Shown here one piece after another: positions 34,923-47,097 of a stretch of DNA of 64,000 nt. Numbering within the stretch: position 1 is the stretch's first letter; each line of letters begins with the position of its first letter. The notes under the pieces are model-generated. The model had not been told where the DNA came from and ran no database searches. It worked only from the letters and a program-made list of their open reading frames with translations. Made by a program: the position numbers and the translations under genes. This DNA comes from Actinomycetospora sp. TBRC 11914. Lineage in GTDB: Bacteria; Actinomycetota; Actinomycetes; Mycobacteriales; Pseudonocardiaceae. The DNA lies in the NCBI RefSeq assembly GCF_012933465.1, contig NZ_JABBND010000001.1:558001-622000 (forward strand), given 5' to 3'.

Positions 34923-34964
34923 GATCATGACCAGCCGGGCCCGTCCGGGACACGAGGGCGGACA

Positions 34965-35007
34965 CGACGAAGGCCCCCGACCCGTGGTGGGTCGAGGGCC
35001 TTCGTCG
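34965..35007 (-). terminator. Terminator of the second initiator tRNA gene
   Basis: A 19-bp stem with one mismatch around the loop GTGGT, directly after copy 2 of the initiator tRNA on the minus strand; its core matches the copy 1 terminator base for base except in the loop. Confidence 0.8.
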
Positions 35008-35012
35008 TGTAG

Positions 35013-35086
35013 TAGCGGGGACAGGATTCGAACCTGTGACCTCTGGGTTATGAGCCCAGCGAGCTACCGAGCTGCTCCACCCCGCG
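35013..35086 (-). tRNA. Initiator tRNA-fMet (anticodon CAT), copy 2
   Basis: Same 74-nt sequence as copy 1, with C1 opposite T72 and the GGG/CCC anticodon stem that mark an initiator. The discriminator is A and CCA is not encoded. It lies 56 bp downstream of the end of the UPF0182 gene on the same strand. Confidence 0.95.
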
Positions 35087-41662: not shown

Positions 41663-42649
41663 GTGAGGCCCCTCCCCCGTGACCCCGCCGACCGCCCGGT
41701 GCTGCTCTGGCGTGACGCCGCCACCGCCCAGTTCGGCTCCGACCCCGCCACCGCGCTCATCCTCGCGGGCCTGAGCCCGCCGCTCGCCGCGCTCGTCCGC
41801 GCCCTGGACGCCGGGGTCCCACCGGCCCGCGCCGTCGCCGAGGTGCTCGCGCGGGGCGGCGCGCCGGGAGAGGTCGCCGCCGTGGTGGCCGCGCTCGCCG
41901 GCGCCGGGCTCGTCGCGGCGCCCCGGCCCGCGCCGGGGCCGTCGTACGTGCGGGTGCACGGCGCCGGCCGGTTGGGCACGGCCGTCGCCGTGGCGCTGGC
42001 GGCGGCCGGGGTGGGCCGGGTCGCGGTCCGCGCGCGGTGCGCGGTGGCGCCGGCCGACGTCGGGACCGGGCTGCGCGACGCCGACGTCGGGCGCCCCGCG
42101 CTCGTCGCCGTCGCCGAGGCGCTCGCCCGCACCGCACCCGCCGTCGTCGTGTCGGAGCCCACACGGCGCCGTCCGGACCTCGTCGTCCTCGTCGGTCCGG
42201 CCGCCACCGACCTGGTGCTGGCCGCCCGGCTGTCGGCCCGCCACCAGCCCCACCTCGCGGTCACCGCGCACGGCGGCCGGGGCGTCGTCGGGCCGCTCGT
42301 CCTCCCCGGGCGCGGGTCGTGCCTGCGGTGTGCCGAACGCCACCGCGCCGCGGCGGATCCGGCCTGGCCACGGCTGGCGGCGCAGCTCGCGGGCCGCCCG
42401 GCCGGGGTCGGTCCGACGACCGCCACCGCGGTCGCCGCGCTCGCCGTCGAGCACGTCCTCGCCCACCTCGCGGGGACGCCGACGCTGGTCGACGCGGCCC
42501 TGGAGCTGGACCTCGCCGGCGGCGCCGTCACCCGGCTCGACCGCCCGGCGCACCCGGCCTGTGGTTGCGCGCCTCGCCCGGAGGGGGTGCGCCCTGGACG
42601 AGCCGACGCCGTGGTGCCGGGGGACAATCGACCACGTGTCGTCCGATGA
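41663..42649 (+). CDS. ThiF/E1-like protein with Cys4 zinc site (Rv3196 position)
   Basis: A 328-residue alanine-rich protein. A winged-helix-like N-terminal region (~1-90) is followed by a Rossmann-like segment (VHGAGRLGTAVAVALAAAGVGRVAV, near 100-125) and a likely structural zinc site formed by Cys220 and Cys223 (GSCLRCAE) and Cys300 and Cys302 (PACGCAP). This is the layout of E1-like/TOMM cyclodehydratase partner proteins, but the ATP-binding and catalytic residues of E1 enzymes are not evident. Its end overlaps the aarF start by 14 nt. It lies where Rv3196 sits in mycobacteria; function unknown. Confidence 0.75.
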   Translation: MRPLPRDPADRPVLLWRDAATAQFGSDPATALILAGLSPPLAALVRALDAGVPPARAVAEVLARGGAPGEVAAVVAALAGAGLVAAPRPAPGPSYVRVHGAGRLGTAVAVALAAAGVGRVAVRARCAVAPADVGTGLRDADVGRPALVAVAEALARTAPAVVVSEPTRRRPDLVVLVGPAATDLVLAARLSARHQPHLAVTAHGGRGVVGPLVLPGRGSCLRCAERHRAAADPAWPRLAAQLAGRPAGVGPTTATAVAALAVEHVLAHLAGTPTLVDAALELDLAGGAVTRLDRPAHPACGCAPRPEGVRPGRADAVVPGDNRPRVVR

Positions 42650-43952
42650 CATCCCACGCCGAACGGTCCAGCGCTCCGCGCGGCTGGCGTCGCTCCCCCT
42701 GGGATTCGCGTCGCGCACGGCGGCCGGCTGGGGCAGGCGGCTCGCGGGCGGCGACGCCGGCGAGATCTCCGCCGACGTCGCCCGGCGCGGCGCCGAGCAG
42801 CTCTTCGCCGTGCTCGGCGAGCTCAAGGGCGGCGCCATGAAGTTCGGGCAGGCCCTGTCGGTGTTCGAGGCCGCCGTCCCCGACGAGCTCGCCGAGCCCT
42901 ACCGGGAGGCGCTGACCCGGCTGCAGACCGCGGCGCCCCCGATGCCGGCCGCGCGCACCCACCGGGTGCTCGCCGAGCAGTTCGGCCGCGGCTGGCGTGA
43001 GCGCTTCCGCGAGTTCGACGACACCCCGGCGGCGTCGGCGAGCATCGGGCAGGTGCACCGCGCGGTGTGGGGCGACGGGCGCGAGGTCGCCGTCAAGGTC
43101 CAGTACCCGGGCGCGGAGGAGGCCGTCATGGCCGACCTGCGCCAGCTGCAGCGCTTCGCCCGCCTCATCCAGCCGATGGTCCCGGGCATGGAGATCCGCC
43201 CGCTGCTCCAGGAGCTGCGCGACCGGATGGCCGAGGAGCTCGACTACCGCGACGAGGCCGACGCACAGCGCCAGTTCGCGGCCGCGTTCGAGGGGGACGA
43301 GCACGTCGTCGTGCCCCGGGTGGTCGCGTCCGCGCCGAAGGCGATGGTCTCGGAGTGGATCGAGGGCACGCCGCTCTCGCAGATCATCCGCACCGGCGAG
43401 CCCGAGGAGCGCGACCGCGTCGGGCGGCTGCTCTCGACCTTCCACTTCTCCGCGCCGGCCCGCGTCGGGCTGCTGCACGCCGACCCGCACCCCGGGAACT
43501 TCCAGATCCTCCCCGACGGCCGGCTCTGCGTGATCGACTTCGGGGCGGTCGCGCGGCTGCCCGACGGGCTGCCGGTCGAGCTCGGCCACATGCTCGCGCT
43601 CGCGGTCGACGACCGCTCCGACGAGCTGCTCGAGCTGCTGCGCACGCTGAACTTCGTGCTCCCGGGCACGGACATGTCGCCCGACGAGGCGGCGGCCTAC
43701 CTGGGCCCGCTCGTCGACCCGCTGCGCACCGACAAGTTCCACTTCACCCGCGAGTGGATCCGCGGCCAGGCCGAGCGGCTCGGCGACCTGCGCCGCCCCG
43801 AGTTCGAGACCGGGCGCGGGCTGAACCTGCCGCCGCAGTACCTGCTGATCCACCGGGTCACGCTGGCCTCGGTGGCCGTGCTCTGCCAGCTCGACGCCGA
43901 GGTCCCGATGCGGGCGATCTTCCAGGAGTGGCAGCCCGGCTTCGACGTCTGA
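42636..43952 (+). CDS. AarF/ABC1/UbiB-family atypical kinase
   Basis: A 438-residue ABC1-family protein kinase-like ATPase. The family's KGGAMKFGQALSVF (the KxGQ motif) is near residue 65, the nucleotide-binding ASIGQVHRAVW with AVKVQYPG follows, then EELDYRDEADAQRQF, and the catalytic loop LLHADPHPGNFQI with the metal-binding CVIDFGAV. ABC1 proteins support isoprenoid-quinone or lipid metabolism; in actinobacteria without ubiquinone the role is probably in menaquinone or lipid handling (inferred). GTG 42636 is used. It precedes whiB7 in convergent orientation, the mycobacterial order Rv3197-Rv3197A. Confidence 0.92.
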   Translation: MSSDDIPRRTVQRSARLASLPLGFASRTAAGWGRRLAGGDAGEISADVARRGAEQLFAVLGELKGGAMKFGQALSVFEAAVPDELAEPYREALTRLQTAAPPMPAARTHRVLAEQFGRGWRERFREFDDTPAASASIGQVHRAVWGDGREVAVKVQYPGAEEAVMADLRQLQRFARLIQPMVPGMEIRPLLQELRDRMAEELDYRDEADAQRQFAAAFEGDEHVVVPRVVASAPKAMVSEWIEGTPLSQIIRTGEPEERDRVGRLLSTFHFSAPARVGLLHADPHPGNFQILPDGRLCVIDFGAVARLPDGLPVELGHMLALAVDDRSDELLELLRTLNFVLPGTDMSPDEAAAYLGPLVDPLRTDKFHFTREWIRGQAERLGDLRRPEFETGRGLNLPPQYLLIHRVTLASVAVLCQLDAEVPMRAIFQEWQPGFDV

Positions 43953-43956
43953 GCTG

Positions 43957-44097
43957 CCGGTTCTTAAGCGAAGGGCACCTCCGCTCGGGGAGACCGGCGA
44001 GGGGCGCCCACGGCCAGGACCCGGCCGGGGGCACCGGGTTGCGAGCGAAGGGCACCATCGCTCGATCTGGTCGACCGATGGTGCCCTTCGCTCAGGA
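43957..44097. repeat. Dispersed palindromic repeat, copy A
   Basis: About 140 bp between aarF and whiB7. It contains a left block (GCGAAGGGCACCTCCGCTCG), a middle block with AGGGGCGCCCAC at 44000-44011, and a perfect 18-bp stem (44043-44060 with 44076-44093, GAGCGAAGGGCACCATCG). The same blocks in the same order recur at 51971-52108. It could terminate both convergent genes. Confidence 0.8.
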
Positions 44098-44124: not shown

Positions 44125-44442
44125 TCACGCCACGCCGGCCGCCTGCCGCGCGGCGGCGAGCTCGGCGTCCCGGGCGAGGTCGGCCTTGCTCGGCCGGCCC
44201 CGGGGCCGCTTGCGGGCGATGACGGATCCCCGGTCGAGGATCTCGCCGCCCCAGACGCCGGCGAACTCCCGCCGTTCCAGGGCACCGGCCAGGCACCGGC
44301 GGCGGATCGGGCAGGAGCCGCACAGCACCTTCGCCTGCTCGAGGTCGGCGGGGCTGTCGGAGAACCACAGGTCGTCGGTCTCCTCCCGGCAGGGGAGCGG
44401 GACCGACCCGGGTATCTCGGGGGCAGAAGGGACGGGATACAT
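44125..44442 (-). CDS. whiB7: Transcriptional regulator WhiB7
   Basis: A 105-residue iron-sulphur WhiB protein that binds the primary sigma factor and activates intrinsic antibiotic-resistance genes in actinobacteria. The four cluster ligands are Cys18, Cys41, Cys44 and Cys50; GVWGGE at 62-67 is the sigma-contact turn; and RGRPSK at 81-86 is the AT-hook that only WhiB7 carries among WhiB proteins. The ATG at 44442 has AGGAGG about 7 nt upstream. It sits between aarF and uvrD2 as in mycobacteria, and has a ~470-nt leader with attenuation features (separate entries). Confidence 0.97.
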   Translation of the reverse strand: MYPVPSAPEIPGSVPLPCREETDDLWFSDSPADLEQAKVLCGSCPIRRRCLAGALERREFAGVWGGEILDRGSVIARKRPRGRPSKADLARDAELAAARQAAGVA

Positions 44443-44524
44443 GCTCGGACCTCCTACGGCGGGTGTTCGGGGATCACCCGGGAACCGCGGAGTCCTCGTG
44501 CGTCTCGAGGGCCGGAGACGACGA

Positions 44525-44553
44525 AGGCCGCGAACCCGGGGGGTCCGCGGCCT
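44525..44553 (-). terminator. Intrinsic terminator (attenuator) in the whiB7 leader
   Basis: On the minus strand AGGCCGCGGACCC pairs with GGGTTCGCGGCCT, 13 bp with one G-T, loop CCC, followed by TCGTCGTC. It starts 16 nt after the stop of the upstream ORF and ends 82 nt before the whiB7 start. A second copy of GGCCGCG abuts the upstream ORF start (44642-44636) and a second CGCGGCC lies at 44705-44699, so alternative pairings are possible. Confidence 0.8.
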
Positions 44554-44569
44554 GGCGATCGGGGGTGTG

Positions 44570-44635
44570 TCAGGCACACCCGCCGCTGGGACGCGGACGA
44601 TGGGGGTCGAGATCGACGTGCTGGCGCTGGCTCAT
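44570..44635 (-). CDS. Upstream ORF (leader peptide) of whiB7
   Basis: A 21-codon ORF reading MSQRQHVDLDPHRPRPSGGC plus a final Ala, stop TGA at 44572-44570, just before the attenuator. Its start codon follows directly on the GGCCGCG element that duplicates the 5' arm of the terminator. No strong RBS is visible. The same frame is open upstream to an ATG at 44854, so a 94-residue version is possible; I prefer the short form because known whiB7 leaders use short ORFs, and the RxHVDL string resembles other actinobacterial leader peptides. Its proposed role is to sense slow translation caused by ribosome-targeting antibiotics. Confidence 0.55.
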   Translation of the reverse strand: MSQRQHVDLDPHRPRPSGGCA

Positions 44636-44640
44636 CGCGG

Positions 44641-44676
44641 CCGGGTTCGCACCCGGGCGCGGGGAGATCTCTCCCC
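44641..44676 (-). promoter_or_regulatory. Paired stem-loops in the whiB7 leader
   Basis: Two adjacent perfect hairpins: CCGGGT/ACCCGG at 44641-44656 and GGGGAGA/TCTCCCC at 44661-44676. They lie just before the upstream ORF start on the minus-strand transcript and could gate access to it. Confidence 0.6.
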
Positions 44677-44915
44677 GGACGCCGGACACGACCGGGACGG
44701 CCGCGAAGGCACGCGTCCGGGCGAGCCCCGTGAACGGGACCTCCTGCGCGTACGGCGTGGAGCAGCGCGACGCGACCGGCGATATGCCGGTCACCGCGAT
44801 CACGTCGGTCACCCGGGACGGGGAGACGGGTGCACCCGTGAGGAACAGCTTCATGATCGGCGCACCCCCTCGTCGCAAGCGTCTCGACCCGGCACGTCAC
44901 GCGCCGGTGGATGCG

Positions 44916-44954
44916 AACCTAGGGGCCCCCGCGCGAGGGCCGCAACGGAATTTC
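44916..44954 (-). promoter_or_regulatory. whiB7 promoter with AT-rich WhiB7-type element
   Basis: On the minus strand: GAAATT (44954-44949), three bases, -35 TTGCGG (44945-44940), an 18-bp spacer, -10 TAGGTT (44921-44916). An AT-rich tract three bases upstream of the -35 is the known WhiB7/SigA recognition arrangement, so autoregulation is likely. It lies 22 bp beyond the uvrD2 stop, giving a leader of roughly 470 nt. Confidence 0.75.
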
Positions 44955-44976
44955 CCGCGAGATCCGAGAAGTTTTC

Positions 44977-47097
44977 TCAGCCGACGTGGTCGCGGACCAT
45001 CGTGAGCACGTCGTCGCCGTAGCGCTCCAGCTTCGACGCGCCGATGCCGGGGATCGTGACGAGCCCCTTCGGGTCGGTCGGGCGCTGCTCGGCGAGGGCG
45101 ACGAGGGTGGCGTCGGTGAACACGACGTAGGCCGGCACCGACCGCTGCTTGGCCTCGTTCGACCGCCACGCCCGCAGCGCGTCGAGCAGCTCGACGTCGA
45201 CGTCGGAGGGGTGCTCGGTGCAGCGGCCGATCTTCTGGGCCGCCGGGTCGGACAGCGCCTTCCCGCACAGCCGGCACCCGGCCTTGGTCACCTTGGCCTT
45301 GGGCCCGCCGTCGACCCCCGACCCCGGTTTGCGTGCCGCCGGGTGGTCCTCGGGCACCAGCCCGTAGAGGAAGCGGCTGCGGCGCCGCGAGCGCCGCCCG
45401 CCCGCCGAGCGGGAGAGCGCCCACGACAGCCGCAGGTGCACCCGCGCACGGGTCACCCCGACGTAGAAGAGCCGGCGCTCCTCCTCCACCGCGTCGTCGT
45501 CGCCGTCGGCGTGCTGGATCGGCAGCGTCCCGTCGGTGAGCCCGACGAGGAACACGGCGTCCCACTCCAGGCCCTTCGCGGCGTGCAGCGACGCCAGCGT
45601 GACCCCCTGCACCGTCGGCGGGTGCTGCGCCTGCGCCCGGGCGTTGAGCTCGGCGAGGAAGCCGCCCAGGGTCGTCGTCGGGACGCTCTCGACGAGGTCG
45701 GCGGCGAGCTCGGCGAGGGCGCGCAGCGACTCCCAGCGCTGGCGCTGGGCGCCGTCGGCGGCCCCGCCGGGCGGCGGCGTCTCGGTGAGGCCCTGCTCCC
45801 CCAGCACCGCCCGCACCGCCGTGACGACGTCGGTCCCGACGACGCCCTCGGGTCCCCCCTCGACCCGGCCCGCCGTCGTGCGCAGCGCGGCGATCGCGGT
45901 GCGGACCTCGGCGCGCTGGAAGAAGCGCTCGCCGCCGCGGACCTGGTAGGCGATGCCGGCGTCGGCCAGCGCCTGCTCGTAGACCTCGGACTGGGCGTTG
46001 ACGCGGTAGAGCACGGCGATCTCGGCGGCGGGCACGCCGTCGTCGATCAGGTCGCGGATCTGGTCGGCGACGGCGGTGGCCTCGGTCGGCTCGTCGTCGT
46101 GCTCGGCGAAGTCCGGCGCGGGACCGGGCGGGCGCTGCCCCTCGAGGCGCAGCCGCGACCCGGCGGCCCGCCCGCGCGCCGCCCCGATGACGGTGTTCGC
46201 GGCGGCGACGACCTGCGGGGTCGAGCGGTAGTCGCGGACCAGGCGCACGACGGCGGCCTCGGGGAAGCGGCGCGGGAACTCCAGCAGGTAGCTCGGGCTG
46301 GCGCCGGCGAAGGAGTAGATCGTCTGGTTGGCGTCGCCGACGACGGTGAGGTCGTCCCGCCCGCCGAGCCACGCCGAGAGCAGGCGGTGCTGCAGCGGCG
46401 TGACGTCCTGGAACTCGTCGACGACGAAGCAGCGGTAGCGCTCGCGGAACTCGTCGGCCACCTCGGCGGAGCCCTCGAGCGCGCCGGCGGTGTGGATCAG
46501 CAGGTCGTCGAAGTCGAGCTGCTCGGCGCGGTTCTTGAGCTGCTCGTAGGAGTCGTAGACGCGGGCGACCTGCTCGACGGGCGCCGGGGTGTCGCGCTGG
46601 GCCTTGGTCGCGGCCTGCGCGTACGCGTCGGGCGCGACGAGGCAGGCCTTGGCCCACTCGATCTCGCTCGCGAGGTCGCGCAGGGACTCCCGGGTGGTCG
46701 GCGCGTCGGCCCGCTGGGCGGCCTGGCCGACGAAGCGCAGCTTGTTCTCCAGCACCGGCCACACCTCGCCGCCGACCGAGCGCGGCCAGAAGTAGCGCAG
46801 CTGCCGCAGCGCGGCGGCGTGGAACGTCCGGGCCTGCACGCCGCCGACGCCGAGGTCGCGCAGCCGGGTGCGCATCTCCCCCGCGGCGCGCGCGGTGAAG
46901 GTGACCGCGAGGACCTGGCCGGCCCGCACCTGCTCGGCGCGGACCAGGTGGGCGATCCGGCGGGTGATGGTGCGGGTCTTGCCCGTGCCGGCGCCGGCGA
47001 GCACGCAGACCGGGCCGCGCGGGGCGAGCACCGCGGCCCGCTGCTCGGGATCGAGCCCCTGCTCCGGGGTCTGGCCGGGCGCCGCGGTCACCGTCAC
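44977..47097 (-). CDS. uvrD2: ATP-dependent DNA helicase UvrD2
   Basis: A 706-residue SF1A helicase. Walker A is [15 protein letters not shown] near residue 36, motif II is VVDEFQDVT, and motif VI is [17 protein letters not shown]. After residue ~590 it has the tetracysteine zinc motif of the UvrD2 group (CRLCGKAL and GRCTEH region) and then an HRDC domain ([18 protein letters not shown]). Mycobacterial UvrD2 unwinds 3'-tailed DNA and is linked to DNA-damage tolerance. The start is GTG at 47097. Its stop lies just upstream of the whiB7 promoter; both are minus-strand genes. Confidence 0.95.

Follow-up and report, generated by a model that had tools for sequence, protein, structure and literature searches.

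The leader of whiB7 in the Actinomycetospora window (the whole 64-kb stretch of DNA analysed here, taken from the 6.5-Mb genome of a soil bacterium of the Pseudonocardiaceae) is, with a probability that we put at roughly 0.83, a transcription attenuator controlled by an upstream open reading frame (uORF), in which the progress of ribosomes along the frame would decide between an antiterminator pairing, P1, and an intrinsic terminator. The attenuator is real and conserved, and the leader fits the known class of whiB7/wblC uORF attenuators. The first-pass annotation of this DNA had named the system a uORF attenuator of whiB7, and that identity stands, the anatomy of promoter, uORF and terminator matching the published mycobacterial and Streptomyces class. 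Transcription attenuation of whiB7 and wblC mediated by a uORF was reportedly described by Lee, Lee and Roe in 2022 and by Burian and Thompson in 2018. In the portions available to us, eight papers bear on such attenuation (PMC10727445, PMC11550727, PMC9618640, PMC13393426, PMC13236596, PMC12421871, PMC4128351 and PMC12121999), and the same portions of the first three support the mechanism proposed below. Two parts of the earlier reading are corrected, namely the length of the uORF, which is 94 codons, and the antiterminator strand, which is placed near the uORF 3' end and not at 44705. The corrected reading provides testable parts (a start codon, a strand) for a switch of intrinsic antibiotic resistance across the Actinomycetes.

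The gene downstream of the leader is an orthologue of whiB7 with an AT hook (44125..44442, on the minus strand, as are all features of the leader given below). Its product of 105 amino acids scores 52.3 bits against PF02467 for the WhiB domain and 16.3 bits against AT_hook for an AT-hook-like stretch, just below the cut-off of 17.4, and in a search of its own genome the best match is the protein itself, the remaining WhiB-like loci reaching E values of 6e-9 or weaker. The flanks are occupied by a gene for a UvrD/PcrA-type helicase (44977-47097, minus strand) and, on the other side, by a gene resembling MABP-1, a macrolide-binding ATPase (42330-43952, plus strand; 540 bits, the cut-off of 800 not being reached); we take the same two neighbours to accompany mycobacterial whiB7. 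Sixteen of 18 genomes of the genus contain a match to whiB7, and the two without a match are 59% and 83% complete. The genus loci (L001, L009-L023) fall into two clades: WhiB7 of clade A has a MYPVP- or MFPVP-like beginning behind AGGAGGTC-type sites, and that of clade B has a GTG start and a longer N-terminus, MSPAGL.

The promoter of the first-pass annotation was found in all its parts on the minus strand: the AT-rich element GAAATT (44949..44954), the 3 bp CCG, a -35 hexamer TTGCGG (44940..44945) and, across a spacer of 18 bp, a -10 hexamer TAGGTT (44916..44921). The start of transcription is estimated at about 44908, for a leader of about 467 nt, and a promoter of the same form precedes all 16 leaders of the genus. 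Members of the whiB7/wblC class have an autoregulated promoter with an AT-rich box upstream of the -35 element and are induced by ribosome-targeting drugs or amino-acid starvation. Such an element is presumably where the AT hook of WhiB7 binds in whiB7 promoters, and GAAATT, which is in place upstream of the -35 hexamer here, is a candidate for that role as judged from its letters. The pattern AAATTNNNTTGC has a single occurrence in the 6.5-Mb genome, at the whiB7 promoter itself, and further WhiB7 targets, if any, must therefore use looser sites.

Between this promoter and whiB7 lies the presumed sensor, a uORF of 94 codons (44570..44854) that begins at ATG 44854, ends with the stop codon 44572-44570 and is preceded, at a distance of 8 nt, by the Shine-Dalgarno sequence GAGGGGGTG (44863..44871; duplex energy -12.0). 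The 21-codon ORF proposed at first from ATG 44635 proved to be the end of this longer frame, since that codon is an in-frame internal ATG with the same stop; by eye it has no Shine-Dalgarno-like sequence in front of it, and an ATG 15-29 codons ahead of the stop is present in 3 of 16 members of the genus. For comparison we assembled 147 leaders, from the 16 genus members, 120 further members of the family (of 187 matching non-genus genomes), 8 Geodermatophilus and 3 Mycobacterium, of which 145 contain the terminator pattern; the pattern missed L062 and L073, though hairpins are listed for both. A finder that accepted ATG or GTG starts, at least 35 codons and a stop 0-50 nt before the terminator returned a uORF in all 145 leaders with a terminator, with a median of 80 codons and a range of 54-133 apart from L012, where it took a 35-codon frame although 90 codons fit.

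Frame, Shine-Dalgarno sequence and position concur in predicting that the uORF of this long leader is translated. The Shine-Dalgarno energy was -8 or lower in 142 of the 145 leaders, a value reached by 8.8% of dinucleotide-shuffled sequences (5 shuffles for each leader) and by 17 of the 145 leaders when the reverse strand was read. The gap from stop codon to terminator is 15-35 nt in 143 of 145 leaders, and its lower bound might correspond approximately to the downstream cover of a ribosome positioned on the stop codon. Within the genus, every one of the 16 leaders has its uORF behind a Shine-Dalgarno sequence and ending just ahead of a GGCCGCGGACC-type terminator; these uORFs have 62-100 codons (finder values, L012 apart) and a stop-terminator spacing of 15-30 nt.

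The conservation of the open frame with a good Shine-Dalgarno sequence throughout the genus could also be expected if the 94 codons encoded a small protein with a function of its own and the terminator in the leader were incidental, and some pairs of genomes do appear constrained (L019-L021, ratio 0.36). We consider such a protein very improbable. In clade A, the 11 of 21 pairs whose pN is below 0.3 give uORF pN/pS ratios of 0.71-1.29; in clade B, all 36 pairs were used, and the ratios span 0.36-2.49 apart from one that is undefined. The corresponding values for the whiB7 core are 0.17 and 0.20. Moreover, the 94-residue product has no match in Pfam at E<=1 or in NCBIfam at E<=0.01, and the tails of the uORFs differ widely across genera. 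With a frame that is kept and ratios near 1, it is therefore translation, and not the peptide, that seems to be under selection. By eye, the 94-residue translation shows no stretch of regulatory codons for a single amino acid.

The intrinsic terminator between the uORF and whiB7 was found as first described, a predicted hairpin of 13 bp with one G.U pair and the loop CCC (44525..44553; -26.0 kcal/mol), whose stem begins 16 nt 3' of the uORF stop codon and whose tail, TTCGTCGTCT, is T-poor. Its arms are not peculiar to the lineage: arms of the GGCCGCGGA...CCGCGGCC type recur across the family and the class. The T-poor tail in the genus would be in keeping with termination that is mainly Rho-dependent, or that comes about through the uncoupling of translation from transcription, with the hairpin in a minor role, and Rho is reported, in the title of one paper, to act on translated uORFs in mycobacteria. 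On the other hand, the pairing of the terminator is kept in 98.5% of the cells of an alignment (A1) of 41 of 44 sequences (L055, L078 and L154 being left out), many relatives have T-rich tails after the hairpin, and the slowing of ribosomes on the uORF would raise the access of Rho, which is the opposite of the published induction. We regard a main role for Rho or uncoupling as improbable, if slightly less so than the small protein.

Copies of both arms had been proposed to allow terminator and antiterminator folds that exclude each other, and both 7-mers exist: CGCGGCC, a copy of the 3' arm, at 44705-44699 within TTCGCGGCC (44699..44707), and GGCCGCG, a copy of the 5' arm (44636..44642), directly against ATG 44635. 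As terminator and antiterminator partners they do not hold up, for folding predicts that one copy binds the other, at a mean probability of 1.00, and gives 0.00 for pairing with the terminator. They are also lost in close relatives, an outcome that the first-pass annotation had named as refuting, CGCGGCC being found in 5 of 16 genus members (18 of the 145 uORFs) and GGCCGCG-ATG in 1 of 16, a loss that leaves attenuation as such untouched. A scheme with a 21-codon uORF from ATG 44635, in which GGCCGCG competes with an antiterminator strand CGCGGCC, can draw on the existence of all three elements in the genome itself and on the 9 pairs that TTCGCGGCC could make with the terminator 5' arm. We find it as hard to credit as the small protein, in view of the rarity and mutual pairing of the copies, the start codon already described, and a swap test across leaders in which the region of the CGCGGCC element (-140..-102) gave no signal of complementarity to a leader's own arm (z 0.0-1.5). 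The three-element scheme was set aside after folding, the swap test and the genus counts; reading a single genome picks out repeats that comparison does not support.

The strand that is likely to serve as antiterminator is GTCCGCG (44592..44598), 26-20 nt before the uORF stop codon, as judged from its letters, from comparison and from modelled folds. This 5' side of P1 (44598-44592) is complementary to CGCGGAC (44543..44549), the 3' side, which lies within the 5' arm of the terminator, and the pairing of the two would enclose a predicted hairpin, P3 (GGGTGTG-CCTGA-CACACCC, 44563..44581), that has the stop codon of the uORF in its loop. A P1 motif, GTCCG or GTTCCG, is present at -45..-8 from the stop codon in 125 of 145 leaders, as compared with 30 and 15 of 145 for two equal windows upstream. 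The two forms of the motif follow the terminator arm: arms with GGAC accompany GTCCG in 80 leaders and GTTCCG in 1, and arms with GGAAC accompany GTTCCG in 35 and GTCCG in 3, which gives 115 leaders in agreement, 4 in disagreement and 26 others (20 with neither element, 3 with both and 3 with another arm type). The base after GGA frequently has no pairing partner within the terminator (C.A in 46 and A.A in 39 of the 145 leaders) and therefore points to an upstream partner as the match that is required.

The match of P1 to the leader's own arm was compared with that to swapped arms. When each genus or family contributed one leader (N=64), z was 5.0-5.5 and 0 of 2000 swaps did as well; with one leader per family (N=24), p was 0.0035-0.0375 in five draws; and for 15 other families alone (families f10-f19 left out) the test failed, with p 0.10-0.25. 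The association between arm type and element type across the family has p 2e-24 in a Fisher test, which we do not count as evidence because the tree contains very few independent changes, the covariation of element and arm coming down to 3 supported independent pairs, of which 1 is concordant, 0 are contrary and 2 are without a difference. When single leaders were compared with their codon-shuffled tails, most were not significant (10 of 145 had p<=0.05, and the median p was 0.18). P1 taken by itself shows modest covariation on A1: both sides differ in 3 cells, a number that 15 of 500 shuffles attained, and 1 of 500 attained the score. On the 41-sequence alignment, 77.7% of the cells of P1-P2-P3 pair, versus 29-40% when the pairing is slid, and 9 of 17 pairs change on both sides. 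In the minimum-energy folds of the segment between the P1 strands, a helix contains or encloses the stop codon in 143 of 145 leaders (a shuffled expectation exists for the energy only); the energy has a median z of -2.29, with 83 of 145 leaders below -2. An antiterminator built from overlapping uORF and terminator sequence is thus found by prediction and comparison, the codon shuffle and the small number of independent changes being its weak spots.

For the leader RNA of the window up to the 5' arm of the terminator, the predicted probability of P1 is 0.99, and once the full terminator is included the terminator is predicted at 0.98-1.0. Among the nascent RNAs of 125 leaders that end at the 5' arm, 69% have P1 above 0.5, including all 16 of the genus, and in the full-terminator RNA the terminator reaches a mean of 0.95 with P1 near 0. 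Since equilibrium folding favours the complete terminator, the decision would have to be kinetic and be made during transcription. A ribosome footprint on the stop codon reduces the leaders with P1 above 0.5 to 30% of the 125 and to 7 of 16 in the genus, and in the window a footprint parked there leaves P1 at 1.0; a ribosome over the P1 element brings P1 to 0 by construction of the model.

The attenuator might then operate as follows. RNA polymerase would start near 44908, and ribosomes would load onto the uORF at 44854. Ribosomes moving at normal speed would cover the 3' end of the uORF, clearing GTCCGCG and opening the stop-codon hairpin while the terminator is made, and the 5' arm, thereby left free, could enter the 13-bp terminator and stop transcription before whiB7. 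Ribosomes that lag or halt at an earlier point of the frame would leave GTCCGCG to pair with the emerging CGCGGAC of the 5' arm, with the stop-codon hairpin stacked inside P1, and the polymerase might get past before the 3' arm displaces P1; WhiB7 would then probably activate its own promoter. A long uORF with an unconstrained peptide could in this way act as a timer of progress and would sense any inhibitor, wherever on the frame it brings ribosomes to a halt. The prediction is that the length of the uORF and the stop-codon hairpin would matter and the sequence of the peptide hardly at all.

Comparison with known systems places the leader among the whiB7/wblC attenuators, which, in the parts of two papers available to us, share with it the whiB7 gene, a long leader, a uORF and a Rho-independent terminator as well as an antiterminator built from uORF and terminator sequence (PMC10727445, PMC11550727). 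The window differs in its uORF of 94 codons and its genus in an extra hairpin inside the uORF. The whiB7 leader of M. marinum and M. bovis is likewise said, in what we saw of the source, to have a uORF behind a Shine-Dalgarno sequence and, close to the 3' end of that uORF, a conserved stem-loop at which attenuation occurs (PMC4128351), whereas the Mycobacterium loci examined have a terminator arm GGCCACGG with the uORF element GTCCGT(GG), shorter uORFs and an alanine-rich uORF tail of a kind that is lacking in the window. Such alanine-rich runs were seen in the Mycobacterium-type tails of L045, L050, L203, L207 and L209, and would fit the reported response to alanine starvation. In ilvB1/trp-type attenuators, according to the excerpt consulted, the position of the ribosome in the uORF also selects terminator or antiterminator, but their uORFs contain regulatory codons for the amino acids sensed (PMC13236596); with no such run and an unconstrained peptide, the uORF of the window does not qualify as that of an amino-acid attenuator. 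The leaders of the actinomycete ABCF genes are5sc and tiaA resemble it, in the sections of the source seen, in a uORF and a terminator/antiterminator pair that answer ribosome inhibitors, and differ in having leader peptides of 3-9 residues and stalling at the start codon (PMC12421871). According to the part of PMC12121999 available to us, stalling within the whiB7 uORF had yet to be tested. No description of the stop-codon hairpin or of an Actinomycetospora whiB7 leader was found in the literature, which we covered in part and without the full text of Lee 2022, and this is no proof of absence.

A covariance model of the terminator plus the stop hairpin extends the comparison to the class, where it matches 231 of 296 genomes at E<=0.01, a count that may include tRNA-terminator look-alikes. 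Among 90 class loci (the 30 best matches and 60 picked for family spread; L191 repeats a family genome), a terminator is present in 86 and a WhiB-type gene lies downstream in 82, from 26 families, and 72 of these 82 loci, from 24 families, have a uORF with a Shine-Dalgarno energy of -8 or lower. The Rfam covariance models gave no match to 44400-45000 up to E=1. It is possible, though we hold it somewhat doubtful, that the whiB7 leader represents a structured RNA that occurs throughout the class and is missing from Rfam 15. On this reading, a long uORF with a drifting peptide would time the progress of the ribosome, and the antiterminator would form a single uninterrupted arm, made up of P1 with the 5' arm of the terminator, an inner helix and the stop-codon hairpin, that is dismantled only by a ribosome that reaches the end of the frame; in Actinomycetospora, the extra hairpin in the uORF would pause RNA polymerase so that polymerase and ribosome advance together.

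That hairpin (44766..44804, +50 to +88 in the window) is a genus-level feature, which in the window and L009-L023 spans roughly +36 to +94 with letters that vary by species (GACGCCGTTGGTCGGCGTC vs GGCGTCGTTGAACGACGCC), and it may act as a pause hairpin for RNA polymerase. The mean z at +50 is -1.46 in the genus vs -0.24 over all loci, and with codon shuffling it is -0.73 in the genus and -0.33 overall, 8 of 145 leaders being below -2. A family-wide early uORF hairpin was dismissed, the signal outside the genus being weak or absent.

Searched in its own genome at E<=10, the covariance model gave 11 matches, of which numbers two and three by rank proved to be tRNA genes followed by their terminators, the fourth is the other strand of the whiB7 leader, and the rest have E values above 1; no further copy of the module appeared among the four best matches. 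One mimic of the module within the window is a tRNA-Met(cat) gene with its terminator (34964-35024; 33.2 bits with the model), and a tRNA-Pro gene with a terminator (L174) behaves likewise. The ends of whiB7 and the MABP-1-like gene converge, and between them lies an inverted repeat (44043-44093; 23 nt, 96% complementary, 5-nt loop; GAGCGAAGGGCACCATCG...), of which a 21-nt direct copy, 90% identical, lies 77 nt off at 43967-43987; the repeat is probably a two-way terminator or a small repeat.
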